From Thermincola carboxydiphila (lineage in GTDB: Bacteria > Bacillota > Thermincolia > Thermincolales > UBA2595), in the NCBI GenBank assembly GCA_016841045.1, contig JAENZX010000007.1, positions 1-64,000 of the forward strand: a stretch of DNA of 64,000 bases, given 5' to 3'. A model generated the notes under the pieces. The model had not been told where the DNA came from. It was given only the letters and a program-made list of their open reading frames with translations, and ran no database searches. The number at the start of each line of letters is the position of its first letter. Positions within the stretch are counted from its first letter, which is position 1. This document shows, piece after piece, positions 4,029 through 55,183 of this stretch. Made by a program: the position numbers and the translations under genes.

Positions 4029-5102
4029 CTAATTGTCCTCTTGGGGCAGTAAAAATATTCTTTCGGGGGGAATATATAGAAAAGTTTTTTCTCTATCAAA
4101 CTCTAGCAGTTGTTTGGCATTTTCTTTTGAAACCTCTACCTGCATTATATGCCCGGAACAGTTAACATATACCGTAATCGAAAAAATCCCTTCTATAAAC
4201 TCAATAATCTTACAGCTAAAATTGTTGATCTCTGTCACCGGTTGTGAAGATAGCTGCATATGGTGAGCCCGTATCCCGGCAGTTAATTTTGCAGGTAAAA
4301 CTACATTTGGCTTTTGGGCCTGAAAAAGCAGATACTCGGATTTGAGAGTAACAAAGGACTCATCTTCTTTTATCAGTTCAGCATTTAAGAAATTTTTACA
4401 CCCTGTTATTCTCGCTGCATCAAGGCTGGTAGGGTAGTTAATAACCACTTCTTTATTGTCAATCTGAATGGTTTTGCCTTTGGAAAATATCAGAATCCTA
4501 TTACATAGGCGATAAGCCTCTTCGGCATTATGGGTAACAAGTAAAACAGTACCTTTGTAGCTGTCCCTAATAATTTGTATCAAATCTTGTTCCAGTAAAC
4601 CCTTTATATGTTTATCCAAAGCTGAAAAAGGCTCGTCAAGAAGTAACAGTTTAGGCTTGGTAATTAAAGTTCGGGCCAAGGCTACACGCTGCTGCTGTCC
4701 CCCCGAGAGGTGTACCGGGTAGTGGTTTTCGTAACCGTTAAGATGTACTTTTTCAACCATCTCAGATACCAGCCTTTCTTTGGTTTTAGGATCAAAATCT
4801 TTAAGACCAAAACCAATATTTTTTTCGACTGTAAGATGGGGGAACAGTGCATAATTTTGAAAGACCAGTCCTATATTTCGTCGTCCTGGCGCAACATCTA
4901 TCTTATTTCGGGAATCAAAAACGGTAACTCCGTCGATAACTATTTTTCCTTCATCTGGAGTTTGCAATCCGGATATACAGCGAAGGGTCAAACTTTTACC
5001 AGAGCCTGAAGGGCCCAGAACACCTAATATTTCACTTTCAGCCTGAAAAGAGGACTCTAACATAAAATTGCCAAACTTTTTCTTAACTTTAACCTCCAGC
5101 AT
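4029..5102 (-). CDS. modC: Molybdate/tungstate ABC transporter ATP-binding protein
   Basis: A 357-residue ABC ATPase that powers import of molybdate or tungstate. Walker A is GPSGSGKS (about 30-37), the Q-loop FQNYALFPHLTV follows, the signature is LSGGQQQR (about 134-141), Walker B is LLLLDEPFSALD, and the H-loop is VTHNAEEA. The last ~120 residues are the TOBE-like regulatory part expected in ModC-type proteins. It begins two bases after the permease stop and is the last gene of modABC. The oxyanion preference (Mo or W) cannot be read from the sequence; the tungsten-type aldehyde oxidoreductase at 32.8 kb makes tungstate plausible. Confidence 0.92.
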   Translation of the reverse strand: MLEVKVKKKFGNFMLESSFQAESEILGVLGPSGSGKSLTLRCISGLQTPDEGKIVIDGVTVFDSRNKIDVAPGRRNIGLVFQNYALFPHLTVEKNIGFGLKDFDPKTKERLVSEMVEKVHLNGYENHYPVHLSGGQQQRVALARTLITKPKLLLLDEPFSALDKHIKGLLEQDLIQIIRDSYKGTVLLVTHNAEEAYRLCNRILIFSKGKTIQIDNKEVVINYPTSLDAARITGCKNFLNAELIKEDESFVTLKSEYLLFQAQKPNVVLPAKLTAGIRAHHMQLSSQPVTEINNFSCKIIEFIEGIFSITVYVNCSGHIMQVEVSKENAKQLLEFDREKTFLYIPPERIFLLPQEDN

Positions 5103-5104
5103 TT

Positions 5105-5782
5105 CTAACGCCCTCCCTTCGTAATTCTTTTTTCGAACCGGTTAAGTAAAAACAGAAAAATTGCTGCTGTCCCTGTCATAATCATAACTAATTTGTTAGT
5201 TAATTCCGTTTTACCGGCCAGCATCGAATCATAAATAGCAATAGGCATAGTAAGTGTTTGGTCAGGAATGCTTCCAGCAACCATCAGGGTAGCTCCAAAG
5301 TCCCCAAAAGCTCTGGCAAAACTCATTATTATTCCTGCAGCGATTCCTCTCCATGCCAACGGGATGCAGATAGAAAAAAAAATGTTAATTTCACTTCTCC
5401 CAAGCAATTTAGCTGCATTTAAAATATCAGAATCTATTCCTGAAAAGGCTGCTCTGGCAGATTTGATTAAAAAAGGAATTGAAACCACTGATGCTGCAAC
5501 TATTGCACCAACAGGAGTAAAAACTATCATTATATCAAACTGTTCCTCCAGAAATTTCCCGATCCAACTTTGCCGACCCAAAAGCACCAGAAGATAATAA
5601 CCTAAAACTGTTGGTGGAAAGACCACCGGAAGTGTCAGGACAGTGTCTACAAAATCTGCTGCCCTGTGGTCGGAACGGCTTAAAAAATAGGCGGTAGGTA
5701 AACCTACTATGATACTAAAGAAGGTGGCTGTCATAGCCACCTTGAGAGATAGAAATAGCGGGAAAAAATTGATATCAGCCAT
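5105..5782 (-). CDS. modB: Molybdate/tungstate ABC transporter permease
   Basis: A 225-residue inner-membrane permease with about five or six hydrophobic segments and the cytoplasmic EAA-type loop AAKLLGRSEINIFFSICIPLAWRGIAAG that docks to ModC. Opening residues are MADINFFPLFLSLKVA. ATG 5782 is preferred to the upstream in-frame ATG 5815 because GGGGAGG lies 9 bases before it. The start overlaps the end of modA by 8 bases, a sign of translational coupling. The gene's position between modA and modC and its size fit ModB. Confidence 0.92.
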   Translation of the reverse strand: MADINFFPLFLSLKVAMTATFFSIIVGLPTAYFLSRSDHRAADFVDTVLTLPVVFPPTVLGYYLLVLLGRQSWIGKFLEEQFDIMIVFTPVGAIVAASVVSIPFLIKSARAAFSGIDSDILNAAKLLGRSEINIFFSICIPLAWRGIAAGIIMSFARAFGDFGATLMVAGSIPDQTLTMPIAIYDSMLAGKTELTNKLVMIMTGTAAIFLFLLNRFEKRITKGGR

Positions 5783-6563
5783 TAGTATTATCCTCCCCAG
5801 GCAGATCGAAACCATATTCTCTCATGACTCTCCTGCCTTCCGTACTGTTTAGATACTCAATAAATTCACGTGCTAATTTCTCCTGCCTGGTTGTTGCAAT
5901 AACACCCAATGACTGTTCTAGGGGTTTGTGCATGTTTGACTCAATTAAGCTGAAATTCACCTTTTCATTCCTGGCTATTGAGAGTGCAATTATACCGGCA
6001 TCAGCATTTCCAGTATTAATAAGGGTTAATGTATCCTGAATATTTTTTCCATAGACTATTTTATCTTTTACCTGTTCCCATAAATCATCTTTTTCCAAAG
6101 CCTGTTTAGCAGCCATACCGTAAGGAGCGTGTTCTGGGTTAGCAATAGCAATTTTCTTGATACCCGGTTTCAAAAGATCTTTTAGTTCTTTAACCTCAAG
6201 GGGGTTTGTTGCCTTTGTTGCCAGCCCGATTCTTCCCGTGGCATAAATCTTTTCTGTATCAGGAATAATCAACCCCTTATTTTTTAATCCCTCAACAAAT
6301 TTAGTATCTGCTGCCGCAAAAACATCAAACGGAGCCCCATTTTCTATTTGCTGCGCCAGGGTTCCTGTTGAACCGAAAATAAAATCTACTTCCATGCCGT
6401 TTAATTCTTCAAAATCTTTCCCAATTTCCTGAAAGGCTAAGGTCAAGTTTGCAGCTGCCCCCACTCTAAGAGGCTGGTTATCAGCTGCTTTATTACATCC
6501 GTTGATTAATAAAACAGACAAACACAAATTAATAAACAAGTACCAATAACTAATTTTCTTCAT
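5775..6563 (-). CDS. modA: Molybdate/tungstate-binding lipoprotein
   Basis: A 262-residue periplasmic-type binding protein with a lipoprotein signal (LLINGC lipobox, Cys about 23), so it would be membrane-anchored outside the cell. Family features include RVGAAANLTLAFQEI after the signal, FGSTGTLAQQIENGAPFDVFAAAD (oxyanion-binding Ser and backbone contacts) and the IANPEHAPYGMAA segment. It captures molybdate or tungstate and hands it to ModB. It is the first gene of the modABC operon and has a near-consensus promoter 50 bases upstream. No molybdenum-cofactor riboswitch is visible in the short leader. Confidence 0.93.
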   Translation of the reverse strand: MKKISYWYLFINLCLSVLLINGCNKAADNQPLRVGAAANLTLAFQEIGKDFEELNGMEVDFIFGSTGTLAQQIENGAPFDVFAAADTKFVEGLKNKGLIIPDTEKIYATGRIGLATKATNPLEVKELKDLLKPGIKKIAIANPEHAPYGMAAKQALEKDDLWEQVKDKIVYGKNIQDTLTLINTGNADAGIIALSIARNEKVNFSLIESNMHKPLEQSLGVIATTRQEKLAREFIEYLNSTEGRRVMREYGFDLPGEDNTNG

Positions 6564-6721: not shown

Positions 6722-8221
6722 TTAGTATGATAGTATTTTGTCAAATTCCTTTTCAAACTGGTTTACTATCAGAGATATGTCATGACCTATCTCCATACCT
6801 GATTCCATCAAAGTTAAATTATCCTCAAATATTTTTACCAATAGACTGTTTATACGCAAATATCGTTCTTGGGCATTTGGGGGTTCAGGGACTCTGCATC
6901 CCCAAATTTCGTCCATACGGTCAAAAAGACAGTTGGTGACTTGCCTCATCAAGCTAGATAAAGTTGATACATTTAAATCTACGAAGGTTGCTTCCCCCTC
7001 GTAGGTGCATGTAGGTTTACTCGTCAAACGTTTTTCCCGCTGCAAATGTTCAAATGCCGGTGTACCTTTTAAAACAATCTGATGATGATAAAGGACATTG
7101 GCAGTGACAGAAAGGTTATTTAACAGCTTATTTTTTTTAAGAAACTCAAAGTTGACCCTTATATCATTTAGCTTTGAATCCGGCTCGAACATGATAAACC
7201 CAATATTGGGTTCAATATTATGCCTTCTAAGAATTCTTAGGGCCTCTTCATTTTGTGCAACCGTAGTCATTTTGTTTAATCGTTTAAGGGAGCTGTCCCT
7301 CCCGCTTTCCAGGCCTACCAAGATATGGCGTAAACCCGCACCTACCAAAGCCCCAATGGTTTCATCATCTATATCATTCACTCGGCCTTCTATACCAAAG
7401 GTAATGTTTCTCGACTTCAACAGGGTCGCCAGTCGCCGAGCCCGCAGCTGGCCACTTTGACCCGGTCCGAAAAAGTTAGGGTCAGTAAAATAAAATTTGC
7501 TGATACCCCGTTCGTCAATAATCATATCTATTTCCCTGATAATATTCTCCGGGCTTCGCCCCCGCCAATGTGAACCGTAACCATAGAAAGGGTTTATGTA
7601 ACAAAATGTGCATCTGCCGTAACAGCCGCGACTGCCGAGAATATTCACCTCTGGAATTTGGTACAAGGCTTCAGTACGTACTGGAAAAGGGAGTGTATCA
7701 AGGTCGGTAACCAGTGGGCGCCGCGTATATTTAATCCCGCCTGTCCTATCATGTACGGCAAGTCCTGGCAGATTATCGGGACATATATCGTTTGATATGG
7801 CTTCAGCCAATTCGGTAAAAGTTACTTCATGTTCACCAACTATAATAGAATCAATAGCCGGACACTCTCCCAGGATATCTGTACAGGCAATGGTAGGGTA
7901 AAAGCCATAAACCGTTATATGATTGGTGAACCCGGAATCCTTAACCATTTCTAAAAAACTATAAAGAGAACTGTCCGTCTGCCAGTGGTAGACCATATGA
8001 ACACCTAGAATATCAGGCTTAAAGGAGCTTATTGTATTTTCAATTTGTGTATAAGAAAGGTTATCCATGTATCCTTCCACAATCACTACTTCATGGCCCC
8101 TGCTCTTTAACGCAGCAGCGGCGTAACCTGTATTTAGGCAAGAAGACAGTGGAGTGTTTGCAATATCGTTACACCGTTCAGCTTCAATTTGGCGCGGGTG
8201 CTCTAATAATAATATTTTCAT
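6722..8221 (-). CDS. bzaE: B12-binding radical SAM methyltransferase, BzaE-like
   Basis: A protein of 499 residues with an N-terminal cobalamin-binding fold (about 1-140) and a radical SAM core with GCYGRCTFC, the Cx3Cx2C cluster motif at Cys 200, 204 and 207. Proteins of this class use methylcobalamin and SAM to methylate unreactive carbons. In anaerobic cobamide biosynthesis BzaD and BzaE add the ring methyl groups on the way to 5,6-dimethylbenzimidazole; the order cobT-bzaC-rSAM-rSAM here matches that operon, so the last gene is called BzaE-like by synteny. ATG 8221 has AGGAGG 9 bases upstream and overlaps the previous stop as ATGA. The split between D and E roles is inferred. Confidence 0.72.
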   Translation of the reverse strand: MKILLLEHPRQIEAERCNDIANTPLSSCLNTGYAAAALKSRGHEVVIVEGYMDNLSYTQIENTISSFKPDILGVHMVYHWQTDSSLYSFLEMVKDSGFTNHITVYGFYPTIACTDILGECPAIDSIIVGEHEVTFTELAEAISNDICPDNLPGLAVHDRTGGIKYTRRPLVTDLDTLPFPVRTEALYQIPEVNILGSRGCYGRCTFCYINPFYGYGSHWRGRSPENIIREIDMIIDERGISKFYFTDPNFFGPGQSGQLRARRLATLLKSRNITFGIEGRVNDIDDETIGALVGAGLRHILVGLESGRDSSLKRLNKMTTVAQNEEALRILRRHNIEPNIGFIMFEPDSKLNDIRVNFEFLKKNKLLNNLSVTANVLYHHQIVLKGTPAFEHLQREKRLTSKPTCTYEGEATFVDLNVSTLSSLMRQVTNCLFDRMDEIWGCRVPEPPNAQERYLRINSLLVKIFEDNLTLMESGMEIGHDISLIVNQFEKEFDKILSY

Positions 8222-9546
8222 TTCTGTTTTACCTCCTGCCACATAAATACGTTTTTGGCCAATTGCAGGGTTTCCAGCTGATATCTGAACTGATCAAAGG
8301 GTTTGGGGTTATAATACGTAGGGTAAAGAAGATCGGTCTCAGGACTAATCAGCCCCTGATTCCTGGCTATTTTTTCAATAGGCGTACCCGGCAGGATACG
8401 GATATTATTCAGTACTACTGCTCCCAAATTCTTTTTTCTGCTGTGTATATCATAGATTCTTTCCAGGAAGTCAATGCTTTTTTGGCAGGTTTTTTCTGTT
8501 TCCCCGGGCACATTAACCATGAAGTGATATACACTGATCACTTCCGTTTGCGCCGTTAACCGGGCAGCATTTAAAATATCCGCTTCATGAAGGTTTTTAT
8601 TCAGGATATCCAGGGCTTCCTGGCATAGTCCGTCAGGCGAGAATGAGAAGCATTCGCAGCCAGCTTTTTCAAACAGGGGGACATTTTTTTCGTTCAGAAG
8701 GTCTTCCCGCATGAACCCATCCCACCGTATTCTTAACTTTCTATTAATTAATTCTTGACAAATTTCTTCCAGATGGCCCTGTGGAATATTAAGAACTGGG
8801 TCTGTAAAATGGAAACTTTGAATACCGTATTCCTTATTTAAAAATTCCATCTCATCCACAACAAATTTTGGCGGTCGGCAGCGCAGTTTATGTCCCTGCA
8901 GGCGGGGATAAACACAATAAGCACAATTGAAGGGGCAGCCCCTTTTAGTCTCAATCCCGATGGCCGGAACATAACTGTTTATATCAAGATAAAGAGATGG
9001 ATTTAGTACATCCCGGGACGGTGGGTTGTATTTTGACATGTCGAACTCCTGTGAAGGAGGGGTAACTCTAATTTTCATCCCTTCTCGGCAGCAAAGCCCC
9101 GGTAATGGTGAAGGGTTATCAATATTCGAGAGTAGAGCAGGAAAGGTATCTTCTGCTTCGCCAACAACACCATAGTCAATTTGCGGCAGTTCCAGCATTA
9201 GCCGTTCAGGAAACAGGGAGAAACCGGTCCCCCCTACAACTATCCTCGCTTGCGGCAGGAGAGCTGAAACAAGTCGGACCGTAACTACAAAAGGTGGAAT
9301 AAGGGAACTTGTTTTGTTGGCCAATGGATCTATGTTTCGCAGCGATATACCCACTATATCGGGCTGAACTTCCAGGAGCCTTTTCTTAACTGCACCGTAT
9401 GGATCAGGTTCAAGGTTCATATCGATAATTTCTACTTGATGTCCGCCCTCCTGAAGCTTACCGGCCAAAGTAACTATTCCGATTGGGTATACCTTTTCCT
9501 GTGAAATTCCTTCAACAGAAGACGCCTGTATCATTAAAACACGCAT
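8218..9546 (-). CDS. bzaD: B12-binding radical SAM methyltransferase, BzaD-like
   Basis: A 442-residue protein with the same layout as its downstream neighbour: a B12-binding half (VYPIGIVTLAGKLQEGGHQV, then the VVGGTGFSL segment) followed by a radical SAM core with RGCPFNCAYC (Cys 204, 208, 211). It is predicted to methylate a benzimidazole ring carbon in lower-ligand synthesis. ATG 9546 is preferred with GGAG at 8 bases; the upstream GTG 9555 would overlap the BzaC stop. Position after the BzaC-type methyltransferase gives the BzaD label; the two radical SAM proteins share architecture and could be swapped in role. Confidence 0.72.
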   Translation of the reverse strand: MRVLMIQASSVEGISQEKVYPIGIVTLAGKLQEGGHQVEIIDMNLEPDPYGAVKKRLLEVQPDIVGISLRNIDPLANKTSSLIPPFVVTVRLVSALLPQARIVVGGTGFSLFPERLMLELPQIDYGVVGEAEDTFPALLSNIDNPSPLPGLCCREGMKIRVTPPSQEFDMSKYNPPSRDVLNPSLYLDINSYVPAIGIETKRGCPFNCAYCVYPRLQGHKLRCRPPKFVVDEMEFLNKEYGIQSFHFTDPVLNIPQGHLEEICQELINRKLRIRWDGFMREDLLNEKNVPLFEKAGCECFSFSPDGLCQEALDILNKNLHEADILNAARLTAQTEVISVYHFMVNVPGETEKTCQKSIDFLERIYDIHSRKKNLGAVVLNNIRILPGTPIEKIARNQGLISPETDLLYPTYYNPKPFDQFRYQLETLQLAKNVFMWQEVKQK

Positions 9547-9551
9547 TCTAA

Positions 9552-11084
9552 TCACTCCAATAACAGTAAGCCAAAATATGTTACAAAATCGTTTTTGTTC
9601 TTCAGGGTATCAATAGCAAAACCTGCCTGCCTGACTGTTCTAAACACATCAATACCTGCTCCCTCCATGGAATTCCGGGCTTCGCGGATGTTCCGGCAGT
9701 ATCCACCGTTAGTACAGTTGTCACAGAGAGAACACGGACCGGCCCAAAAAACCATGGCTTTATAAAAACCTGCTTTAAAGGCCTGCTTTTCAGCCAGTAG
9801 TGCTCGTTGCTGAAATTCCTTGGTAGGAGGCTGGCCCTTAAGAAGTACAGCATGGGAATAGTCTTTCAATATATCCTTTGTTTGTTTGGAGGTCGGGCTG
9901 TTTGGCGGACAATGCGGCATTCCATACCTTTCGCAGCCAAGCCGGCATTTGGCTTCTACCCAATCTGCAACACATATATCCTCTGCTGATATAGGACACA
10001 CTTCATCAAAACCCATAGTTTTTAGCTGTACATTCAACCGGTCTATGGGGTTAAGCTTTAAGCCCGATAGGTCTTCTAAACTTTTAGCGGCGATAATAAG
10101 GGCTGTATCCGTCTCCAGTGGAACAATTTCCGTTGTATGTAGATTTAGATTTAAAAGTTCTTTTTGAACCCATTGATGGGAAAATACCTTTCCATTATAC
10201 GTATTGACAAACATATTTAAATCAAAAAGGGCTGCTTTTTCAGGGTAATGTTCCAGGTAAAAATCATGAATCAGGATAAACCCCCCTGGTTTTAGGAAAT
10301 CTGAAGCCTTTTTAAGAATATATAAAACCTCTTCTTCAGAATAAGCATGAATTATATTTGAGAGTATAATCAGCTCAAAATCTGCTGTGTCAACAGGCCA
10401 GGTTTCCAAAATATTGGCCGGACAAAAAGTAAGCCGTTCACTTATTTGTTGATTAATCTTCTCCCTGGTACAATCCAGCACTTCCCGAAGATCCATAAGA
10501 GTGGCGGTCATTTCTGGATAAATCTCCAGGAAACCCGCAGAAATAGCTCCTGACCCGGCGCCAACATCCAGAATTTTTCCCCTTAAGTGTATCCCCTCAA
10601 AAAATGGTGTCATTTCCCTGACTTTGGTCCTGGCAACACTATCCATAGCACTGATATATTTTTTTATCCTATTGGCCATATTAACGGGAGCTTCTCCGGC
10701 GAAATCGTACTTAACCCTGCCACCGGTTTTGAGGCAGTCCGCAAGGTCCCGCCAGTTAGAGAACAGCTGTTTTCGCCAAAGAATAGAATCACCCTGGTAA
10801 TCTTCTTTACCGATTACCAGAAATTCGCTCGAAACTTTAGTATTATAAAACCGGCCGCCATCATTAATAAGCAGCCCCACAGCACAAAGAGCCTGTAGAA
10901 ATCTCTCTGCTCCCCGAGGTTCAATACCAAGTGATATTGAAATTTCTTCAGACGACCTGCCTCCCGGCTCAATAAGACTGAAAATTTCCAGTTCAACAGC
11001 GGTATAAAGAACTTCAGAAAACCAATATCCCGTAGCTAAATTTTCCAGGTACTGCGGGCCGTTTCTATTAACCCCGCGGTACAT
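9552..11084 (-). CDS. bzaC: BzaC-like O-methyltransferase fused to DUF2284
   Basis: This 510-residue protein joins two parts. Residues 1-335 are an O-methyltransferase of the acetylserotonin/hydroxyindole type: a winged-helix dimerisation domain, then a SAM fold with ILDVGAGSGAISAGFLE. In the bza pathway BzaC methylates the hydroxyl of 5-hydroxybenzimidazole. Residues about 345-510 match DUF2284, a predicted metal-binding domain, with the cysteines of AKCRLGCERYGMPHCPPNSP and GPCSLCDNCTNGGYC and the family ending GIDVFRTVRQAGFAI. The ATG overlaps the cobT stop by 17 bases, and GGGGGTG precedes it. The fused Cys-rich domain suggests an added metal or redox role; what it does here is unknown. 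Confidence 0.78.
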   Translation of the reverse strand: MYRGVNRNGPQYLENLATGYWFSEVLYTAVELEIFSLIEPGGRSSEEISISLGIEPRGAERFLQALCAVGLLINDGGRFYNTKVSSEFLVIGKEDYQGDSILWRKQLFSNWRDLADCLKTGGRVKYDFAGEAPVNMANRIKKYISAMDSVARTKVREMTPFFEGIHLRGKILDVGAGSGAISAGFLEIYPEMTATLMDLREVLDCTREKINQQISERLTFCPANILETWPVDTADFELIILSNIIHAYSEEEVLYILKKASDFLKPGGFILIHDFYLEHYPEKAALFDLNMFVNTYNGKVFSHQWVQKELLNLNLHTTEIVPLETDTALIIAAKSLEDLSGLKLNPIDRLNVQLKTMGFDEVCPISAEDICVADWVEAKCRLGCERYGMPHCPPNSPTSKQTKDILKDYSHAVLLKGQPPTKEFQQRALLAEKQAFKAGFYKAMVFWAGPCSLCDNCTNGGYCRNIREARNSMEGAGIDVFRTVRQAGFAIDTLKNKNDFVTYFGLLLLE

Positions 11085-12144
11085 CCGGTGTCACCCCCGC
11101 ATCTTCAAAAGTAAGCATTTTTATAATAACCTGAGCGGCAGACTCTACGATATTCATAGCCAGTGCTGCTCCGGTACCTTCACCCAGGCGGAGATTTAAA
11201 TCCAGCAGCGGCTTAAGGCCCAGCTGATCAAGCATAGCATTGTGCCCTGCTTCCATCGAACGATGGGCGCCGATCATGTAATCCAGTGAAGCAGGAACCA
11301 ACTCTTTTGCCAAAAGGGCTCCGGCGGAGGAGATAAACCCATCCACCACTACAGGAATCTTGTAGTAAGCCGCCCCAAGAATAAGACCGGCGATACCACC
11401 AATCTCAAAACCTCCGACTTTGGCAAGTACATCTACCGGGTCATTGGTATTAGGCCTGTTTACTTCCAAAGCCTTTTCAATAACACGGGCTTTGTGCTTT
11501 AGGCCCTCATCACCGATTCCTGTTCCCCGGCCCGTCACTTCCTCTGCCGCCCGACCGGAGAAGGCCGCTAAAATAGCACTGCTGGGAGTGGTATTGCCAA
11601 TACCCATATCTCCTGTGGCCAATAATTCTACTCCTTCTTCGACCAATTTGCCAGCAATCTTAATTCCTGCCTCCAAAGATTGGACTGCCTGTTCCCTGGT
11701 CATAGCCGGGCCCTGAGCCATATTGTCCGTCCCGAAACCGACCTTGCAAGAAATAATGCTGCCTTTTTTAACTAACTCATCAAGTTCAGCGGCAACTCCC
11801 ATATCCACTACAACCACTTTGGCCCCTGCCACTTCTGCCAGCACATTGATAGCGGCTCCACCGGCCACAAAATTGGCAACCATTTGGGGAGTGACTTCCT
11901 GTGGAAATGCGCTGACCCCTTCATTTACAACACCATGGTCTCCGGCCATGGTTACAACTACTTTTCTTGCAACTGAAGGTTTAAGATTCTGCTTAATGGC
12001 AGCCAGCTGCTCGGCAATACCAAGCAGTTCTCCAAGACTCCCCTGGGGAATAGCCAAGTTATTCAAGTATCGTCTGGCTTTCTGCCGCCATTTTTGGCTC
12101 ACAGGTTCAATGCCTTTAATTACGTCGGCTAGTTTTAGACTCAT
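11068..12144 (-). CDS. cobT: Nicotinate-nucleotide:benzimidazole phosphoribosyltransferase
   Basis: A full-length 358-residue CobT. It makes the alpha-ribotide of the lower-ligand base from nicotinate mononucleotide, the activated form attached to cobinamide. Family segments include VTMAGDHGVVNEGVSAFPQEVT, GDMGIGNTTPSSAI and the C-terminal LRLGEGTGAALAM containing the catalytic glutamate. It lies in the riboswitch operon between the permease and bzaC, so its likely substrate is the benzimidazole produced or imported by its neighbours. A TTTGAGCATAAAGGAGAG leader gives a good ribosome site. Confidence 0.95.
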   Translation of the reverse strand: MSLKLADVIKGIEPVSQKWRQKARRYLNNLAIPQGSLGELLGIAEQLAAIKQNLKPSVARKVVVTMAGDHGVVNEGVSAFPQEVTPQMVANFVAGGAAINVLAEVAGAKVVVVDMGVAAELDELVKKGSIISCKVGFGTDNMAQGPAMTREQAVQSLEAGIKIAGKLVEEGVELLATGDMGIGNTTPSSAILAAFSGRAAEEVTGRGTGIGDEGLKHKARVIEKALEVNRPNTNDPVDVLAKVGGFEIGGIAGLILGAAYYKIPVVVDGFISSAGALLAKELVPASLDYMIGAHRSMEAGHNAMLDQLGLKPLLDLNLRLGEGTGAALAMNIVESAAQVIIKMLTFEDAGVTPDVPRG

Positions 12145-12178
12145 TGCATTCTCTCCTTTATGCTCAAAATATCAAATC

Positions 12179-13537
12179 TTATCTTTCAAGCTCCATGGAA
12201 TTATTTAACCGCACCTTCTGGCTTCTCATTTTCAGAATTAACCGGTATACAAGTGCGCTGATGGCAAGGCTTAGGAAATAACTGATATCTGCATGACCAA
12301 GATATTTTTCAGCTATAGGGCCAACATACAGAATCGAGCTCATAAATGGTATGGAGACAATTATCCCGACCATAAAAGCAGTAATTCCGGCCAGGGTGTT
12401 TGTTGTGTTATCCTCAGCAGGAGCAGTACGATAATAATAGAAATCACAAAGAATAACACCCAGCCAGGGAGCGATCCAATAAGAGAGAAGCAGTAGGAAA
12501 TTTTTATATGTATCAGCTAAATGTCCTCCCCCAAAGGAAACCAGCAAAGCCCCTATTCCACCACAAACTATGGCAGATGTCCAGCGTTTCATAGGAATTC
12601 CCATAGCCAGAGCTGCCAGGCCTCCACTGTAAATTGCCATAGCATTAACAGGAAATATGCTGAGAATAACAGTAATCAATGCAGGTATCGTAAATACACC
12701 CATTAGTTTGGCAAAAAAGTCCATTGGCCCAGAATGAGTTCCCAACGTAGCTGTTAATGCTCCCAGTATTTCTAACCAAATACAGACTGTTAAAGCTCCG
12801 AGGTAAGAAGTCAGCCAAACTTTTTTCCCTGATATATTTTTAGGAAGGTATCTGGAATAATCGGAACCAATTGGACAGTAGCTTATCTGATATGAAAAGG
12901 CCACTGCGACAGTCAATATAAACATGCCCAGATTAAAATCCCCCGTTTGTGCAGGTGAGTTACTTAGCAGCAAAGGCACGTTTTTGACGGAAACCACCGT
13001 CAAAATCAAGAAAAGTATCCCCATAACAATAGACATCCAGTGGGCAAAGGAATGAATAAAGTTATAACCGTATATGGCAATTAAAAGGGTAGCTGCAGTA
13101 AGTAGTAATAAGGCCCAACCATAACCCAAAGGAATAACTTTTTGCAAAGCCAATGCAGCCAAAACGAGATTTACTGCTAACCAGCCGATATTGTTAACAA
13201 AGTTGAGAAAGGAGAGTCCAAAAACTCCTGTTTTGCCAAAAGCTCTTTTGCTTGCCGGAATTAGGGGCTGCCCTGCTAATGGGCCCACCGCTGAAGTCAT
13301 GGCAAGAAAAACTGCGCCCAGCACATTACCGATTATAATTGCCAAAATCGCGTGCTTTAGTGATAATCCGAATTCAATCCCCAAAAAACCCGTGAACCAT
13401 GTAACCACATTCAAGTTAATTGCAAACCAGATAGTGAACATCTGACTCGGGCGACCATGCCGCTCCTCTTTTGGAATGGGTTCAATCCCGTATGGTTCCA
13501 CCTCCAAAACTTTTTCCTCATAAGCTGTTTCTGACAT
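12179..13537 (-). CDS. NCS1-family nucleobase-type permease in a B12 operon
   Basis: A 452-residue integral membrane protein with about 12 hydrophobic segments, of the nucleobase:cation symporter-1 (CodB/cytosine-purine permease) family. The N-terminal part has GIEPIPKEERHGRPSQMFTIWF and LSLKHAILAIIIGNVLG, and VAFSYQISYCPIGSDYSRYLP follows in the middle, all typical of NCS1. ATG 13537 is chosen because GGAGGG lies 6 bases upstream. It is the first gene after a cobalamin riboswitch and precedes cobT and bzaCDE. Import of a benzimidazole or an imidazole/purine precursor of the lower ligand is a reasonable inference; no CodB-type role is shown. The family call is secure, the substrate is not. 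Confidence 0.85.
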   Translation of the reverse strand: MSETAYEEKVLEVEPYGIEPIPKEERHGRPSQMFTIWFAINLNVVTWFTGFLGIEFGLSLKHAILAIIIGNVLGAVFLAMTSAVGPLAGQPLIPASKRAFGKTGVFGLSFLNFVNNIGWLAVNLVLAALALQKVIPLGYGWALLLLTAATLLIAIYGYNFIHSFAHWMSIVMGILFLILTVVSVKNVPLLLSNSPAQTGDFNLGMFILTVAVAFSYQISYCPIGSDYSRYLPKNISGKKVWLTSYLGALTVCIWLEILGALTATLGTHSGPMDFFAKLMGVFTIPALITVILSIFPVNAMAIYSGGLAALAMGIPMKRWTSAIVCGGIGALLVSFGGGHLADTYKNFLLLLSYWIAPWLGVILCDFYYYRTAPAEDNTTNTLAGITAFMVGIIVSIPFMSSILYVGPIAEKYLGHADISYFLSLAISALVYRLILKMRSQKVRLNNSMELER

Positions 13538-13603
13538 AAACATCCCTCCAAATAATTCTTTCGTTTCCCCTGCATGCACTGTTCTAAAGCTTTATCCACA
13601 AAT

Positions 13604-13636
13604 AAAAAGCCCACGCCAAATATTGGCATGAGCTTT
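13604..13636 (-). terminator. Second of two tandem terminators after the cobalamin riboswitch
   Basis: On the minus strand AAAGCTCATGCC pairs with GGCGTGGGCTTT around AATATTT and is followed by TTATTT. It resembles the stem at 13652-13687 closely in sequence and lies about 70 bases before the permease start. Either stem could end transcription when B12 is bound. Confidence 0.75.
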
Positions 13637-13651
13637 ACCACAATCCTAAAT

Positions 13652-13687
13652 AAAAAAGCCCATACCAATATTCCAGGCATGGACTTT
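13652..13687 (-). terminator. First of two tandem terminators after the cobalamin riboswitch
   Basis: On the minus strand AAAGTCCATGCC pairs with GGTATGGGCTTT around TGGAATATT, followed by TTTATTT. It lies about 50 bases past the riboswitch core and is a near copy of the next stem downstream, which suggests a duplicated expression platform. Confidence 0.78.
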
Positions 13688-13737
13688 ACCATCGTCCTCA
13701 CCTAAGCCGCATTACTTCCGACACGGCGTAGATTATT

Positions 13738-13885
13738 CCAGGCAGGTCTCCTGACTTAGAGTCATCACCAGTGTGCCCCTTCCCTCAAAGTTCTGAAGTG
13801 GTATGGCACAAGGCTTCCCTTCACAGTGGCGGGTCCGTCCGGGATTTCCACCCGGTTCCCTATTCTCCCTTGCGGGCACCTGAAA
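13738..13885 (-). promoter_or_regulatory. Cobalamin riboswitch (B12 element)
   Basis: Read on the minus strand, the conserved blocks of a cobalamin riboswitch appear in order: AGGTGCCCGC, AGGGAACCGGGTGGAAATCC, GGACCCGCCACTGTGA, a GCC-containing arm, a GGGAAGG block and the closing GTCAGGAGACCTGCCT. It lies between a consensus promoter and two tandem terminators, upstream of the permease-cobT-bzaCDE operon. Adenosyl- or methylcobalamin binding would be expected to shut the operon off. Confidence 0.95.
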
Positions 13886-13905
13886 CTTAATTTTCCATTA
13901 AATAA

Positions 13906-13934
13906 ATATTATCCTCTTTTAGGTTTAATGTCAA
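13906..13934 (-). promoter_or_regulatory. Promoter of the riboswitch-controlled bza operon
   Basis: TTGACA (13929-13934, minus strand) and TAATAT (13906-13911) are separated by exactly 17 bases. The predicted start is about 10 bases before the riboswitch, so the whole aptamer is in the leader. The upstream gene ends only 33 bases away. Confidence 0.82.
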
Positions 13935-16016: not shown

Positions 16017-17870
16017 TTAACCATTCTGTTTAAAGTACATATTTTCCGCAAATATACTGTTAAACTTGGGGTAACTCCCTAACTCAACAAATTCGACAGA
16101 AGCCGCAATATCATCTGCTCTTTTGAACTCTTCTGCCGATAGCAGAGCCAGTTTTGAGCCGGTGCCGGCAGCATTTCCGATCATCTTAATTTTACCTTCA
16201 AGTTCCCTTGGGATTAATCCAATTACACATGCACTGTGAGGATTTAGATAATTTCCAAAGGCTCCGGCCAGTAAAACTTCCTCAATGTCTTCTACCTGAA
16301 TACCGTAGGTTTCCATCAAAACTTTGACACCTGCTGCCATAGCACCCTTTGCCAGCTGAAGTTCACGGATATCCTTCTGAGTAATCATAATAGGCCTGCC
16401 ATGACTGGTATTGTCAGAATCAGCCAGCAAAAATGCTCCTGCACCCTCATACTGAATAATATTATTTTTAAACCCTTGTAAAGCGGGACTTGTTAATTTA
16501 TCCGGTGATAAAAACTTGCCCCTCTTATCGATGATGCCCAGCTCAACCAATCCGGCTACAGCGTCCAGTAAAGCAGATCCGGCAATACCCTGTGGACTGC
16601 CCCCGCCGATCACGGAATACTCAAGCCTGTCCGTAAAGTAAACGTGGTCGATAGCTCCAGCCGCCCCTCTCATTCCACTGCTTATCTGTGCACCTTCAAA
16701 GGCAGGTCCGGCCGCAGCCGAACAGGCGACTATTTTTTTGTTTGAACCAAGGGCAATCTCCCCGTTAGTGCCAATATCTATAATGAGCTTAACATCCTCA
16801 CTTCGGTCCAACTCGGTTGCCAGAAGAACTGCTGTCGTGTCTGCCCCAACAAACCCGGCGATATTGGGTAGCACAAAAATCTTGCCCGCCTGGTTTATTT
16901 GAATCTCCAGTTCAGAAGGACTTACGGCCACTGCTTCAGTAATACTTGAAACATACGGCGATACCGCTATATTCCGGGGAGTTATACCCAGAAAAAGATG
17001 ATGCATAGTGGTATTTGCCGCAATGGACACACCATAAATATCACTTCTGCTTATTCCGGCTTTTTCCATTGCTTCCCCGATTAGTTTGTTTATAGCCTCT
17101 ATTACTTCCTTGTGCAGCTTAGCAAGTCCATCCTTCTCCTGATTTGAGAAAGTAATCCGTGAAATAACATCTGCACCAAATTTAGTCTGTGGATTCAAGG
17201 TTGACACCACACTTAACTCTTTTCCTGTATAAAGGTCAAGCAGATATCCCACGATGGTGGTAGTACCAATATCAAAAGCCATTCCCAACATAGTTGCTGT
17301 GGTATCCCCCTGTTCGACGCCCAGCACTTTACTATCATACAAAACAGCTGTCAATTTATGTTTTGCTTCACGAATTGTGTCTGGCAGCTGGCGTAAGATA
17401 GAAACCGGCACCTTCACCTCGCCAAGATGTCGGACCGTCTTGTTCAAACTATCCTTAACACGACTCCAGTCAGAGCGGTGATCCTGCATTGAAGCTTTGT
17501 CCACTTCTATAAAGACCTTGTTAAGGTGTGGTTGAATTTTTCCAGCTCTTTCTTCTGATGCAACTAATATATTATGCTCAAGTTTGTTATGTTCCAAAAG
17601 CTCTACTACAATATGGTCATTAACTTCAGTCATACAAGCCAGGCGGATTCCGCCCTCCAATTCTTTTATATTAAGGGTTTCCTCCTCCACAGCGGTGGGC
17701 TTTCCAATCCCTGTCATCAGGCGAACCCTGCATTTTCCACATTTACCCCTGCCTCCACAGGGAAAATCAGCCTCAAGCCCGGCTTCGTTCATCGCTTCCA
17801 TAATAGTAGTGCCTTTTCCAACTTCTATATTCACATCTCCGGGTTGAAAAACAACTTGAAATTTATTCAA
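16017..17870 (-). CDS. RACo-type corrinoid activation protein (2Fe-2S, ASKHA)
   Basis: A 617-residue ATP-dependent reductive activator of corrinoid proteins. The N-terminus is a plant-type [2Fe-2S] ferredoxin domain with FPCGGRGKCGKC and LACMTEV (Cys 38, 44, 47, 79). The rest is the DUF4445/ASKHA fold: MAFDIGTTTIVGYLLDL, LIIDIGTNGEIALG, and the C-terminal LLAGAFGNYLNPHSA. In acetogens such proteins return Co(II) to Co(I) in methyltransferase or O-demethylase systems. TTG 17870 is chosen with GGAGGG 6-7 bases upstream. The gene lies beyond a strong terminator from the methyltransferase operon and so has separate transcription, with the MetH-activation-like gene 48-ish bases downstream. Confidence 0.9.
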   Translation of the reverse strand: MNKFQVVFQPGDVNIEVGKGTTIMEAMNEAGLEADFPCGGRGKCGKCRVRLMTGIGKPTAVEEETLNIKELEGGIRLACMTEVNDHIVVELLEHNKLEHNILVASEERAGKIQPHLNKVFIEVDKASMQDHRSDWSRVKDSLNKTVRHLGEVKVPVSILRQLPDTIREAKHKLTAVLYDSKVLGVEQGDTTATMLGMAFDIGTTTIVGYLLDLYTGKELSVVSTLNPQTKFGADVISRITFSNQEKDGLAKLHKEVIEAINKLIGEAMEKAGISRSDIYGVSIAANTTMHHLFLGITPRNIAVSPYVSSITEAVAVSPSELEIQINQAGKIFVLPNIAGFVGADTTAVLLATELDRSEDVKLIIDIGTNGEIALGSNKKIVACSAAAGPAFEGAQISSGMRGAAGAIDHVYFTDRLEYSVIGGGSPQGIAGSALLDAVAGLVELGIIDKRGKFLSPDKLTSPALQGFKNNIIQYEGAGAFLLADSDNTSHGRPIMITQKDIRELQLAKGAMAAGVKVLMETYGIQVEDIEEVLLAGAFGNYLNPHSACVIGLIPRELEGKIKMIGNAAGTGSKLALLSAEEFKRADDIAASVEFVELGSYPKFNSIFAENMYFKQNG

Positions 17871-17906
17871 GAAAATCCCTCCAAACGAGCTCAGCATAAT
17901 TAAAAA

Positions 17907-17942
17907 ATATACAGAGAGAGATAAAACACTCTCTCTGTATAT
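17907..17942 (-). terminator. Strong terminator ending the methyltransferase/GPH operon
   Basis: ATATACAGAGAGAG (17907-17920) and CTCTCTCTGTATAT (17929-17942) form a perfect 14-bp stem with an 8-base loop. On the minus strand it is followed by TTTTTAATT. It ends the unit that starts with the corrinoid protein at 22803. A related TACAGAGAG stem closes another unit at 26402-26429. Confidence 0.9.
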
Positions 17943-17975
17943 AATGGTTTTTGCTACAGCTTTATTATACCAAAA

Positions 17976-19331
17976 TTAAGCTACAATACCTGATCTTTTC
18001 TGCATATCCTGTCTAATTTCAACTATCTTTTTTTCGTCTAAACGGTAAAAAAGCACACCTATAAGCGCAAATGCAGCTATCACCCCTGGTACCATCGAAG
18101 CTATTAAAATGATTGATCTGGTCAACTCAGGAGTTGGGGCCGCACCTGCTACATAACCAATAGCCGCTAAACTAAATCCTATAACGGCCCCGCTTAAGGC
18201 CACCCCAATTTTTATTGGAAGAGCGCTTAGTGCCATAATCAATCCCTTAGCATTTTTCCCGGTTTTCCATTCACTGTATTCTGATATATCGGCATACATT
18301 GCGTACATCACCGCATTGGCAAAACCTGTACCAAACGTTGCTACAGCATTAAGACCGATATAGGCCATTGGATTTTCGGCAACAACCCAAATCAATGCAA
18401 AGCAGATAATCTCGATACTCAAACCTACAATATAAACCTTTTTCTTGGAAACCTTTCTGGCCGCCGCTTCACCAACAAATGAACCAATTAATAAACCGAA
18501 ACTTACAGTGGTAAAGAAAGCAGATACCAGAAGCATGTTTTGTGCAACATATTTGAAATAGTAAACTGCCAAACCTAAAATCATATACCTGGCAGTTAGT
18601 ATAAAAACTTCTACCATAAAGAAAATCATAAGGTATTTGTTCGAGAAGACCTGTTTTAGCATGTCCCTTAATGTTGCTGTTTGCTTTACCTCAGTTTGAA
18701 GATCAATTGCCCAGGGTTTTACAACACGGGCCATTAACCTGTAACCAAAAACTTGTAGTAGAGCAAAAATGATTATCGTCAGGAAGAATCCTTTTGCCTC
18801 ATTGCCCCCTCCCAACGCAATAATCATTGGCATGGCAATCAAACCTAAGAGGATTTGAGCAGCTGACACAAATTGCTGCCTACGCGACGAAATGGTAACC
18901 CGGTCTTCCTGATGAAAACCTAAAACCGGTATAAGGGCGGTATGGGCCGACCACGCAAGGTTTACAAAAAAGTGTGCACACACGTAAATTGACCCCAGAG
19001 TTATAGCTTTGGCCGCAGTGCTTAACGAACTAAAATTGGTAAACATCAAGATAAAGAAAGTAGCTGTGATTGGAGGAACAACTAAAAGCCAGGAACGGTA
19101 CTTGCCCCATTTTAAGTTAGTCTTCTCAATGATCGCCCCTGCAACCGGAACTGAAAAAGCATCACCAATTCGTGCAAACAACAATATTGTCCCTGCAGTG
19201 GCAGCACCAATAGCTGCAACATCAGTAAGAAAGTAAGCATAATAGTTGACTGCCAAATACATCATGAGCTGAAAGCCTGTTTCACCAATACTAAAGAGAT
19301 TTATCGTACTAGACTTAGGTCTATTCGCCAT
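17976..19331 (-). CDS. GPH-family (MelB-like) sugar/aromatic cation symporter 2
   Basis: A 451-residue, 12-segment carrier of the glycoside-pentoside-hexuronide:cation symporter group. NLKWGKYRSWLLVVPP is the loop 2-3 signature of MelB-like proteins, and DISEYSEWKTGKNAKGLIMAL is the second conserved motif. It pairs with a paralogue just upstream (45-base gap). ATG 19331 has AGGAG 8 bases upstream; the longer reading to 19364 lacks one. In this operon, with UroD-type methyltransferase and corrinoid protein, the two carriers probably import the methylated substrate. The substrate is not shown by sequence. Confidence 0.82.
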   Translation of the reverse strand: MANRPKSSTINLFSIGETGFQLMMYLAVNYYAYFLTDVAAIGAATAGTILLFARIGDAFSVPVAGAIIEKTNLKWGKYRSWLLVVPPITATFFILMFTNFSSLSTAAKAITLGSIYVCAHFFVNLAWSAHTALIPVLGFHQEDRVTISSRRQQFVSAAQILLGLIAMPMIIALGGGNEAKGFFLTIIIFALLQVFGYRLMARVVKPWAIDLQTEVKQTATLRDMLKQVFSNKYLMIFFMVEVFILTARYMILGLAVYYFKYVAQNMLLVSAFFTTVSFGLLIGSFVGEAAARKVSKKKVYIVGLSIEIICFALIWVVAENPMAYIGLNAVATFGTGFANAVMYAMYADISEYSEWKTGKNAKGLIMALSALPIKIGVALSGAVIGFSLAAIGYVAGAAPTPELTRSIILIASMVPGVIAAFALIGVLFYRLDEKKIVEIRQDMQKRSGIVA

Positions 19332-19375
19332 TTCATTCTCTCCTCTCATGATCAAAAAGATCATGTTTCAGCTTA

Positions 19376-20734
19376 TTAGGCCGCCTTTCTGGCTGCAATC
19401 TCTTTTTGCATTTGTTCAAGCTTTTTAGGTGTAATTCTATAGAGGAACATAATACACATTAGCCCTGCAAGTATGATAACTGCTGGAATTAAGGTAATTC
19501 CGTTTTTTACACCGTTTACCAGTTCCGGCGTGGGAGCCATCTCGGCAACATATCCCGCTCCTGCAAGCACAGCCGTAATTATAACACTTCTTGCCAGTAT
19601 GGCCGCCTTAATGGGAAAACTAAGCAAAGACATTACAAAACCTCTGGCATTCTTTCCTGTTTTCCATTCAGCATAGTCAACAGTAGATGAGTACATTACG
19701 ACACCCAATGCATCAGGCATTGCATATCCTATATATGCTAAGAACATTACTATCATAAATGAAATATAATTCATTGGCATCAGCCATATAGCTAACAAGC
19801 CAACTACGAATATTCCTAGAGATGCCATATATACATTTCTTTCTCCGAACTTTTTAGCAAGTGGATTGGAAACGGCAGCTCCCAGGAAAATCACAACATT
19901 TAACCCTGTAAAGAATATCGTTATTACTGCCAGGTTATTTACTACATATTTAAAATAATAAAATGCAAGCCCAAAGATAACAAAACGCCCTAAGTATCTT
20001 CCAAATTCACCCAGCATTAATCCAATGAGAGGTGGATTGTAAGCAATCTGTTTAAACATATCGCCAACAGACATTTTTTGTTCCGCTTGACCTGTCTGAA
20101 CAGACGTTCCGTGGAAGGCATAGTCTTTGGTAATAAAAAACAGCACATAATAACAAGCAACCATAACTAAACCTGTTATTGCAACAGTAATTGTATAACC
20201 CATCGGAGGATTGTTCTTGCCAAGAGCCAGAATTAATGGCATACCGATTAGAGAAAAAGCGATAGCCCCTAATCCATTAAACATTCCTCTGTTAGATGAC
20301 ATGGCAATTCGATCTTCTCTAACAGTTGTCATAGAAGAATTCATTGCGATATGTCCCCCGTAGTAAATGTTCCAAATCAAATGACTAACGACAAATCCAA
20401 CCGTAATAATAATGGCATTCACGCTTGGAGAACCGATTTTGGAAAACTGCAGAATGAAAAACAATGCTGCCAATGGAGGACCCACCAATAGCCAAGAGCG
20501 GTATTTACCCCATTTCATATTGCTCTTTTCTAAAATAACTCCTGCAGTAGGAACCCATATAATATCAAATATACTGGTAATCAATAATACTGTGCCAACT
20601 AAAGCCATTGGGAGTTTCGCAAAATCAGTCAAAAATGCCGCAAAATAGAATACCTCCATATTTACGAACAACTGAAACCCAAATGATGGCAATCCATACA
20701 AATTGATAATTGACTTCTTTAATTGCTCTGCCAT
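19376..20734 (-). CDS. GPH-family (MelB-like) cation symporter 1
   Basis: A 452-residue paralogue of the next gene, with the same NMKWGKYRSWLLVGPPLAAL and DYAEWKTGKNARGFVMSLLSFP motifs and about 12 membrane segments. ATG 20734 has GGGGAG 8 bases upstream. The conserved N-terminal cation-binding Asp of MelB cannot be verified by eye (ITSIFDIIWVP). It follows a small protein gene and precedes the second symporter in one operon. Two carriers may serve different methoxylated compounds, or a substrate-product exchange; both ideas are inference. Confidence 0.82.
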   Translation of the reverse strand: MAEQLKKSIINLYGLPSFGFQLFVNMEVFYFAAFLTDFAKLPMALVGTVLLITSIFDIIWVPTAGVILEKSNMKWGKYRSWLLVGPPLAALFFILQFSKIGSPSVNAIIITVGFVVSHLIWNIYYGGHIAMNSSMTTVREDRIAMSSNRGMFNGLGAIAFSLIGMPLILALGKNNPPMGYTITVAITGLVMVACYYVLFFITKDYAFHGTSVQTGQAEQKMSVGDMFKQIAYNPPLIGLMLGEFGRYLGRFVIFGLAFYYFKYVVNNLAVITIFFTGLNVVIFLGAAVSNPLAKKFGERNVYMASLGIFVVGLLAIWLMPMNYISFMIVMFLAYIGYAMPDALGVVMYSSTVDYAEWKTGKNARGFVMSLLSFPIKAAILARSVIITAVLAGAGYVAEMAPTPELVNGVKNGITLIPAVIILAGLMCIMFLYRITPKKLEQMQKEIAARKAA

Positions 20735-20841
20735 ATTATTCTCTCCCCTTAACAAATTTCTTTACTCCGCATCTGTGTTAATTACAAAACCCCGTTCATA
20801 ATTTAAGTGGGAAGTAGTGGGGTTTCTATTTTCGGCAGACT

Positions 20842-20985
20842 TTACAGCACTAACCCTAGAATGAAATTAAACATGACATCTTCGTATTTCTCAATTTTAG
20901 GCGCAATTACTTTTTCAGGCTTGCCCTCCAACTCAGGATGTTTCTCCCTGTACTCTTCCCAGGTTGTATAGTATTTTGACTTCAT
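20842..20985 (-). CDS. Small operon protein of 47 residues, function unknown
   Basis: An open frame from ATG 20985 to TAA 20842 encodes a 47-residue charged protein starting MKSKYYTTWEEYREKHPELE, with a hydrophobic tail MFNFILGLVL. GGAGAGATAATGT precedes the ATG. It lies between the UroD-type methyltransferase and the first symporter in the same direction. I do not recognise a family. The following 107 bases to the symporter contain a weak inverted repeat (AAACCCC near 20787 and GGGGTTT near 20819) that may slow transcription. Confidence 0.6.
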   Translation of the reverse strand: MKSKYYTTWEEYREKHPELEGKPEKVIAPKIEKYEDVMFNFILGLVL

Positions 20986-21006
20986 ACATTATCTCTCCTT
21001 TCCTTA

Positions 21007-22161
21007 TTAATAGGTGCCATTTGTATAGACATACTCTAAAACAGCCCGCAGATTATCAGCTACCTTACCGTCTGAATCGGTACTGATTATACTCTTATCT
21101 GCCTGGAACCAATACCTGCCGGTGGGTGCTAAAATATCAAGCAGTTCCTTTGCCTTATCAATACATTGAGCTTTGTCCCCGGTCTGCAGCAATGTTACAG
21201 GATAGAAACCAGACAGGACATGCTTCTTGCCAAGCTTGTCTGCAACAACTTTGGGGTCTCCATATTCGAACCTCATAATTGTGTTTTCAGGTAGTTCATA
21301 TAAATAATCCAGGTATCTCATCCAGTCATGTTCTACAAACAACTGTACTTTTTGACCCATGACGGCTAATTCTTCTACTAAAGTTTTGAATGTTGGCCAG
21401 TAGAACTTGGCAAAGTCTTTTTCCCGCATGTAAGGAGCCATATGAAGTGGAATAAAGCTAAATCCAAGTATATTAGGGTTTGGCAGCTTGCCTTTCTTAA
21501 TCATTAACGGCAGCACTGCCTCACAAGCGGCTACCACTTTCTCAGGATACCGTCTGATGTCACTGGAAATACCTTTGAAGCTTCTTAGAAAATCTGCCAT
21601 AAAGTCAAAGGGGGCTTCTGTTAAAGAGACCACTGGGGCAACCATTCCGTATTTTGCATTAGTCCTATCTCTTATTGCTCCCAAAGTAGCCCAATCATCA
21701 GAAAAGGCTTTTACAGCTTTAGCCAAAACCATAGCCTTTTTACTTGGTTCTGCGTCAAGCTCGGTATAAAGACGGGGCAGTACAGTATCAATTATGAAAT
21801 CATACGGAGCTGCAATGAACTCATCATATTCTTCAGGCATTAGCCCCATAACTTCTGGGTGCTGCATAAATCCACCCGAACCCATTACAATAGCCTTAGA
21901 GCCCAGTATCTGATAAAAGGCAGGAAGCCTTAAACTGCCAACAGGACTGGTATCTGTAGGAAACTCCTGGCAAAACTTATCAAAAACCGGCTCGCAGCGA
22001 GCGATATCCCATTGAGCTTCAGCCAGGTCTTCACCATAGTACTGAATTGCAAACTCCAAAGTTGCAGGGTTGGTAACAGGCACTCTCTTGGGAGCCTTAC
22101 CGCTAAAAAGATCCCGGAAAAGCTGCTCCCTCTCGTTTTGTAATTCTTTAATATCTGTCAT
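21007..22161 (-). CDS. UroD-superfamily corrinoid methyltransferase (MT I type)
   Basis: A 384-residue protein of the uroporphyrinogen decarboxylase superfamily, which includes the substrate-specific methyltransferases (MtaA/CmuA, and the O-demethylase MT I of acetogens). Typical segments are RDLFSGKAPKRVPVTNP near the N-terminus, and LFVEHDWMRYLDYLYELPENTIMRFEYGDP and SGFYPVTLLQTGDKAQCIDKAKELLD near the C-terminus. Cys 335-ish and His 294-ish are candidates for zinc binding but I could not align them. It starts seven bases after the corrinoid protein stop and is followed by transporters. Demethylation of a methoxylated or methylated compound onto the corrinoid protein is the likely role; the substrate is unknown. 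Confidence 0.82.
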   Translation of the reverse strand: MTDIKELQNEREQLFRDLFSGKAPKRVPVTNPATLEFAIQYYGEDLAEAQWDIARCEPVFDKFCQEFPTDTSPVGSLRLPAFYQILGSKAIVMGSGGFMQHPEVMGLMPEEYDEFIAAPYDFIIDTVLPRLYTELDAEPSKKAMVLAKAVKAFSDDWATLGAIRDRTNAKYGMVAPVVSLTEAPFDFMADFLRSFKGISSDIRRYPEKVVAACEAVLPLMIKKGKLPNPNILGFSFIPLHMAPYMREKDFAKFYWPTFKTLVEELAVMGQKVQLFVEHDWMRYLDYLYELPENTIMRFEYGDPKVVADKLGKKHVLSGFYPVTLLQTGDKAQCIDKAKELLDILAPTGRYWFQADKSIISTDSDGKVADNLRAVLEYVYTNGTY

Positions 22162-22167
22162 AATCGA

Positions 22168-22803
22168 TTACACCCACCCTTGACAAATTTTTACGCCTTC
22201 AGCTGCGTTTGTAGTAAATGCATCAGCGCCAATATGCTTACAAGCGTCCTCATTAACAGGATTTCCACCAATGATAACCCTTACTCCATCCCGAACCCCT
22301 GCCTCATTAAGAGCATCTACCGTAGCCTTCATTGCATCAAGGGCCAATGTAAGAACACCACTCATGCCTACTATTTGGGGTTTTACTTCTTTTACCTTAT
22401 CAACAAACGCAGCGGCAGTTACATCAATACCCAGGTCATATACTTCAAAACCCGCGGCTTCAATCATGCTGCCAAAAATGTTCTTACCGATATCGTGCAG
22501 GTCCCCTTCTACAGTACCAATAACCACTTTGCCAACCTTTTGTGATTCTTCTCCACCAAGTACAGGCTTTAAGATGTCGATTGCTTGGGTAAGCAGCTCT
22601 CCTGCAAATATTAAATCTCCGACAAAGTATTCATTTTTCTCGAATAGGTCTCCCACAATAGCCATCCCTTGCTGACAAGCGCCAACCACTTTGTATGCTT
22701 CATCTCCACTTGGATCTGAAGCTACAAATTCTTCCAACATACTTACTACCACTTCTTCATCAAGGTCTCCAACTGCCTGTGTCAATGCCTGTAAATCTAA
22801 CAT
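22168..22803 (-). CDS. Corrinoid (B12-binding) methyltransferase protein, copy 1
   Basis: A 211-residue corrinoid protein: an N-terminal four-helix cap (about 1-88) and a Rossmann B12-binding domain with GTVEGDLHDIGKNIFGSMI, whose His103 is the lower axial cobalt ligand, and IIGGNPV near the end. It carries the methyl group between the UroD-type MT I next to it and a methyltetrahydrofolate methyltransferase. It is nearly identical to the copy at 26482-27120. It starts a unit containing the MT I, the small protein and two symporters, and a GTATATAC palindrome lies about 92 bases upstream. Confidence 0.93.
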   Translation of the reverse strand: MLDLQALTQAVGDLDEEVVVSMLEEFVASDPSGDEAYKVVGACQQGMAIVGDLFEKNEYFVGDLIFAGELLTQAIDILKPVLGGEESQKVGKVVIGTVEGDLHDIGKNIFGSMIEAAGFEVYDLGIDVTAAAFVDKVKEVKPQIVGMSGVLTLALDAMKATVDALNEAGVRDGVRVIIGGNPVNEDACKHIGADAFTTNAAEGVKICQGWV

Positions 22804-55182: not shown

Positions 55183-55183
55183 G

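Follow-up and report, generated by a model that had tools for sequence, protein, structure and literature searches.

An operon of Thermincola carboxydiphila that seems to have exchanged the first enzyme of cobamide lower-base synthesis for a probable base carrier

The DNA analyzed here (hereafter, the window) is a stretch of 64,000 nucleotides from Thermincola carboxydiphila. Its minus strand carries, from position 13934 down to position 6722, a single unit composed of a promoter, a riboswitch, a hairpin and five close-set genes:

13905-13934, minus strand: sigma-70-like promoter (TTGACA, 17, TAATAT), agreeing with the consensus at 10 of 12 positions
13724-13898, minus strand: cobalamin riboswitch aptamer, full length (RF00174, 105.9 bits, E 1.7e-25)
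13606-13636, minus strand: terminator-like hairpin of 14 pairs with a T-run, between the aptamer and the permease gene
12179-13579, minus strand: NCS1-fold permease of the clade that we call NCS1bza, proposed importer of a benzimidazole base (PF02133)
11068-12144, minus strand: cobT, nicotinate-nucleotide:benzimidazole phosphoribosyltransferase (TIGR03160, 446.7 bits, cut-off 319.3)
9552-11084, minus strand: BzaC-like O-methyltransferase with a C-terminal DUF2284 metal-binding domain (PF00891, PF08100, PF10050; named by slot)
8218-9555, minus strand: BzaD, a B12-binding radical SAM methyltransferase (TIGR04385, 728.6 bits, cut-off 450)
6722-8242, minus strand: BzaE-like B12-binding radical SAM protein (PF02310, PF04055; named by slot and similarity)

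The aptamer scores far above the Rfam gathering score of 31.5. The promoter match is weak, with two overlapping matches found where shuffling predicts 1.0, and the terminator-like hairpin is likewise close to expectation (one found, 0.7 expected in shuffles); a second, similar hairpin can be discerned by eye immediately upstream of it, at approximately 13693-13650. Only 34 bases separate the stop codon of the permease gene from the start of cobT. For the proteins encoded at 9552-11084 and 6722-8242, NCBIfam gives no match to a curated BzaC or BzaE family, and we therefore name them by slot and similarity, relying on likeness and gene order across approximately 70 bza loci, including those of Eubacterium and Acetobacterium, and on comparison with the corresponding slots of named bza operons such as that of Eubacterium callanderi (L095). 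Several of the Acetobacterium BzaC frames (L084, L085 and L098) fall short of the window's protein by about 150 residues, and DUF2284 is probably absent from them. A sequence-only reading of the window had listed a riboswitch, an NCS1 permease, cobT, a BzaC-like methyltransferase and two B12-binding radical SAM proteins, all in one direction, and Rfam, Pfam, NCBIfam and the open reading frames bear out every part of that description.

Other features of the window deserve brief mention. Genes for a modABC-like molybdate transporter lie directly downstream of the operon (4029-6563), and Mu-like prophage genes, among them a transposase with a Mu C-terminal domain and a Mu portal protein, occupy positions 49923-62045. 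Upstream, on the minus strand, a corrinoid methyl-transfer cluster (16017-27123) includes genes for a RACo reactivator, a URO-D-type methyltransferase, two corrinoid proteins, a pterin-binding methyltransferase and two MFS_2 carriers, which implies heavy use of cobamides beside the operon.

The proteins and the order of the cobT-bzaC-bzaD-bzaE segment resemble those of known anaerobic bza operons, and the window thus contains BzaD, CobT and ordered homologues of BzaC and BzaE. In contrast to those operons, it encodes neither the BzaA-BzaB pair nor BzaF, and the first gene after the riboswitch is the one for the NCS1-fold permease. The earlier reading had noted that no ThiC-like first enzyme was in view, and the first of its conditions for refuting the salvage interpretation was that bzaF or bzaAB should turn up at another place in the genome. 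A search of the whole genome (4.16 Mb, 100% complete by markers, 2.5% contamination) recovers exactly one protein of the ThiC family (PF01964). This protein is not a BzaF, since its gene resides in an operon with thiH and thiE under the control of a TPP riboswitch, and a 129-protein tree places it with thiC and apart from BzaA, BzaB and BzaF; it also scores 542.9 bits against a BzaB cut-off of 700. Neither bzaA, bzaB nor bzaF is therefore present genome-wide by PF01964 search and tree, and the original observation extends from the window to the entire genome. BluB gives nothing above its cut-off in the same genome, while CbiC and CobS are both present. As a result, the organism can probably make the corrin ring and the nucleotide loop of a cobamide, and it would do so without a known route to a benzimidazole.

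The permease is a member of the NCS1 superfamily (PF02133, Transp_cyt_pur, 117.1 bits, cut-off 23.5) that lies outside the TIGR00800 ncs1 subfamily (121.4 bits, cut-off 353.1). An AlphaFold2 model (pLDDT 79, pTM 0.81) adopts the NCS1 fold, and its structural matches are led clearly by CodB (Z 37.0) and Mhp1 (Z 32.5), which carry cytosine and hydantoin, respectively. The permease shares with them the fold and a stacking tryptophan: W133 corresponds to the base-stacking tryptophan known in CodB (PMC9379551). A second aromatic residue, Y234 in TM6, occupies an alignment column in which only Y, F or W occurs; its assignment as a stacking residue relies on this column and on a modeled helix break, because the alignment of TM6 to CodB is ambiguous residue by residue. 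In contrast, identity to CodB and Mhp1 is only about 18%, and the permease belongs to a separate clade with its own binding-site residues and B12-linked neighbors. Positions that set this clade apart, with a residue invariant within it and not found in its relatives, are concentrated at the predicted binding helices (8 of 21, with 2.1 expected, p = 4e-4, for site windows set by hand). We considered whether the protein might be the hydroxymethylpyrimidine transporter CytX and rejected this assignment, as it scores 98.9 bits on TIGR02358 (cut-off 309.85), follows a cobalamin rather than a TPP riboswitch and has no thiamin context.

The clade is compact and well separated. Its members share at least 63% identity, are joined with support of 100/99, and occur in about 12 genomes besides that of the window. 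Among 398 genomes drawn from the phylum, seven carry a member (at least 66% identity), and the next relatives stand at about 40% or below. A BzaD scan of named genomes yielded 79 loci, with a close permease relative in seven of those loci or their genomes; the phylum search added G073, G108 and G145, and a class search added G477. Every member examined resides inside a bza operon or adjoins cobT, with cobS between permease and cobT in several cases, and a cobalamin riboswitch lies just upstream of the permease in every complete leader scanned (a set that excludes G477, and G042, whose contig is cut there). Distant NCS1 relatives (36-48% identity) whose surroundings were examined are not near cobamide genes. 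Those at 44-48% from Desulfosporosinus and Peptococcaceae CEB3 form a sister group with other neighbors, and we do not count them as members.

The most reduced arrangement is seen in G145, where riboswitch, permease and cobT are retained and BzaD is absent, and so the smallest unit consists of the predicted carrier and the enzyme that activates the base. An apparent 807-residue permease-CobT fusion in this genome spans a 100-base N gap and is really two genes joined across it, and for this reason we claim no fusion. Three further peculiarities were encountered among the loci examined. In G041, a second, truncated permease copy directly follows the first (L239:2194-2919), and two tandem Moco riboswitches lie near the bza operon (L060:14250-14563). 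In a Desulfosporosinus bza operon (L041:6366-8365), purE (AIR carboxylase) and a purF-like gene are inserted between bzaB and bzaC, perhaps to steer aminoimidazole ribotide, the precursor used by BzaAB.

How closely is the permease linked to loss of the first enzyme? ThiC-family searches find no bzaA, bzaB or bzaF genome-wide in six permease genomes, namely that of the window, G042 (Tepidanaerobacteraceae), G043 (a Syntrophomonadaceae MAG, 84% complete), G045 (Syntrophaceticus schinkii, 97%), G052 (Thermacetogenium sp., 95%) and G145 (98%), where the completeness values for G043, G045 and G052 are those of G302, G478 and G347, which have identical contig coordinates. G042 has only a true thiC, and the last four have no ThiC-family protein whatever, thiC included. 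Six other permease genomes also carry bzaAB. In G009 the pair lies between permease and cobS-cobT; in the other five it has a riboswitch of its own, and is found downstream in G073 and at another site in G041, G044, G046 and G108. Since about half of the permease genomes keep bzaAB, the permease appears to supplement synthesis as well as to replace it; on gene content, the permease and loss of the first enzyme do not strictly go together, and the permease is not simply a substitute for that enzyme. Nevertheless, 5 of 11 genomes with both permease and bzaD lack the first enzyme, compared with 2 among the roughly 70 bza genomes that have no permease (Fisher p = 3e-4), a hand-tallied comparison that ignores kinship among few, partly related lineages and is only indicative. 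The two exceptions that lack both, G050 and G053, are small drafts, and their bza contigs break off at cobT or close to it.

Several individual operons are telling. The permease nearest to that of the window (84% identity, sister in the tree) belongs to G009, whose operon reads permease-bzaA-bzaB-cobS-cobT-bzaCDE, and the window operon looks like this arrangement from which bzaA-bzaB-cobS has been removed. G001, from the same family as the window's organism, has bzaAB and no permease. In G036, the riboswitch is followed by a permease stump (43 residues of the C-terminus, 58% identity, E 5e-11) and then by bzaAB-cobT-bzaCDE. Complementary losses of this kind are the pattern expected if two routes led to one and the same compound.

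These observations suggested the following scheme to us. When cobamide is scarce, the riboswitch would permit transcription of the operon, which is presumed to be B12-repressed. The permease would then bring in a free benzimidazole released by other microbes, for which 5-hydroxybenzimidazole or a methoxy derivative is the best candidate, and CobT would join this base to ribose-phosphate. BzaC would methylate the 5-hydroxyl group, and BzaD and BzaE would take the product toward 5,6-dimethylbenzimidazole, following the steps of the known pathway (PMC6461909, PMC8123684). The cell could thereby build its preferred cobamide on its own corrin ring without a ThiC-like first enzyme. The sequence-only reading had already proposed an import-and-tailor route, and it gains support from the recurrent riboswitch-permease-cobT-bzaCDE set without a first enzyme, from the unit reduced to permease and cobT, and from the complementary losses; we infer transport itself, its direction and substrate, and that each enzyme is active in this organism. 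Overall, we regard it as reasonably probable that the permease supplies CobT with an imported benzimidazole base, likely the 5-hydroxy or a methoxy form, and that BzaC, BzaD and BzaE convert it toward dimethylbenzimidazole.

Feeding a base into the tail of the pathway is real biochemistry, because Eubacterium limosum turns exogenous 5-hydroxybenzimidazole into dimethylbenzimidazole (Renz 1993, cited by title in PMC4230183), and free benzimidazoles are present in environmental samples (PMC4230183). Benzimidazoles supplied in guided biosynthesis enter bacteria without any known carrier (PMC6389850), and so a dedicated carrier need not be essential. Because CobT rather than a kinase accompanies the permease, alpha-ribazole is a less likely cargo than the base.

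Four other explanations were weighed against import of a benzimidazole. An unlikely one is that the permease imports a nucleobase or purine-like compound (adenine, purine or hypoxanthine), either for purinyl cobamides made via CobT or for general salvage, and that benzimidazole is incidental. NCS1 carriers of known substrate move pyrimidines, purines and hydantoins, a relative with 39% identity adjoins a xanthine-dehydrogenase-like gene, and CobT can act on adenine in some bacteria (PMC8123684). Against this reading stand the consistent B12-riboswitch control of the permease and its company with bzaC, bzaD and bzaE, whose products act on benzimidazoles; the clade also departs from its relatives at predicted binding-site positions. 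Alternatively, the base might be made de novo by an unrecognized first enzyme outside the ThiC family, with the permease serving otherwise, for example by importing a precursor for that route. Intact CobT and BzaC, BzaD and BzaE do lead one to expect a supply of 5-hydroxybenzimidazole, yet the relatives' operons that we examined have no candidate gene in common between permease and cobT, where only cobS is found besides bzaAB, and we consider such an enzyme quite improbable.

It is very improbable that the operon is decaying, having lost bzaAB with the rest on its way out, and that the cell makes another cobamide or imports complete ones. Parts of such operons do decay, as illustrated by the loss of bzaD in G145 and the permease stump in G036, but all five genes of the window are intact and close-set behind a full riboswitch, and G042 and G043, members of other families, likewise keep this bzaAB-less set intact. 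Finally, an assembly gap that hides bzaAB or bzaF is extremely improbable: most of the genomes are drafts, but that of the window is 100% complete by markers, its operon is located within a contig of 160,870 bases with those 34 bases between permease and cobT, and the same absence recurs at 95-98% completeness (G347, G478, G145).

Salvage of lower-ligand precursors has precedent. CblT and CblS salvage alpha-ribazole (or DMB) in Bacillota (PMC8123684) and, as predicted for the window, bypass synthesis by importing a precursor. The window differs in that its carrier belongs to another family, that CobT, present in the operon in place of the kinase CblS, would act on the free base, and that tailoring enzymes follow. 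Partial bza sets are also known: the portion of Shelton et al. 2018 (PMC6461909) that we consulted describes 8 of 96 bza-bearing genomes without bzaF or a bzaA-bzaB pair, and 10 of the 96 for which no cobamide was predictable, and that portion does not give a transporter as the missing link. In the open literature, to which our search was confined, we found no report of an NCS1 carrier linked to cobT, bza or a B12 riboswitch, and hence no prior report of an NCS1 benzimidazole carrier, nor did the literature found establish an importer of a free lower base.

We put forward, tentatively and with slightly less than even confidence, the broader proposal that the members of this clade are carriers dedicated to benzimidazoles, the first such carriers with the NCS1 fold, and that they mark a class of organisms auxotrophic for the lower ligand, which would take up an incomplete base and complete it to dimethylbenzimidazole. 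That base might perhaps be the 5-hydroxybenzimidazole of methanogen or Geobacter cobamides. Carriers of the operon include syntrophic acetate-oxidizing groups (Thermacetogenium, Syntrophaceticus and possibly Tepidanaerobacteraceae), which fits with feeding by methanogen partners.

Which microbes can use a given cobamide depends on its lower base. Judged from its genes, the anaerobic bacterium studied here seems to have exchanged the first enzyme of lower-base synthesis for a membrane carrier that probably imports the ready-made base. If the clade does consist of importers, then one could score genomes for auxotrophy of the lower base, some of the bza-partial genomes left uninterpreted by Shelton et al. 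would find an explanation, and the exchange of incomplete B12 parts among syntrophs and the partners that they live with would become concrete and testable. With the carrier recurring in about a dozen relatives, the question of who feeds whom in B12-making communities would be open to direct test.
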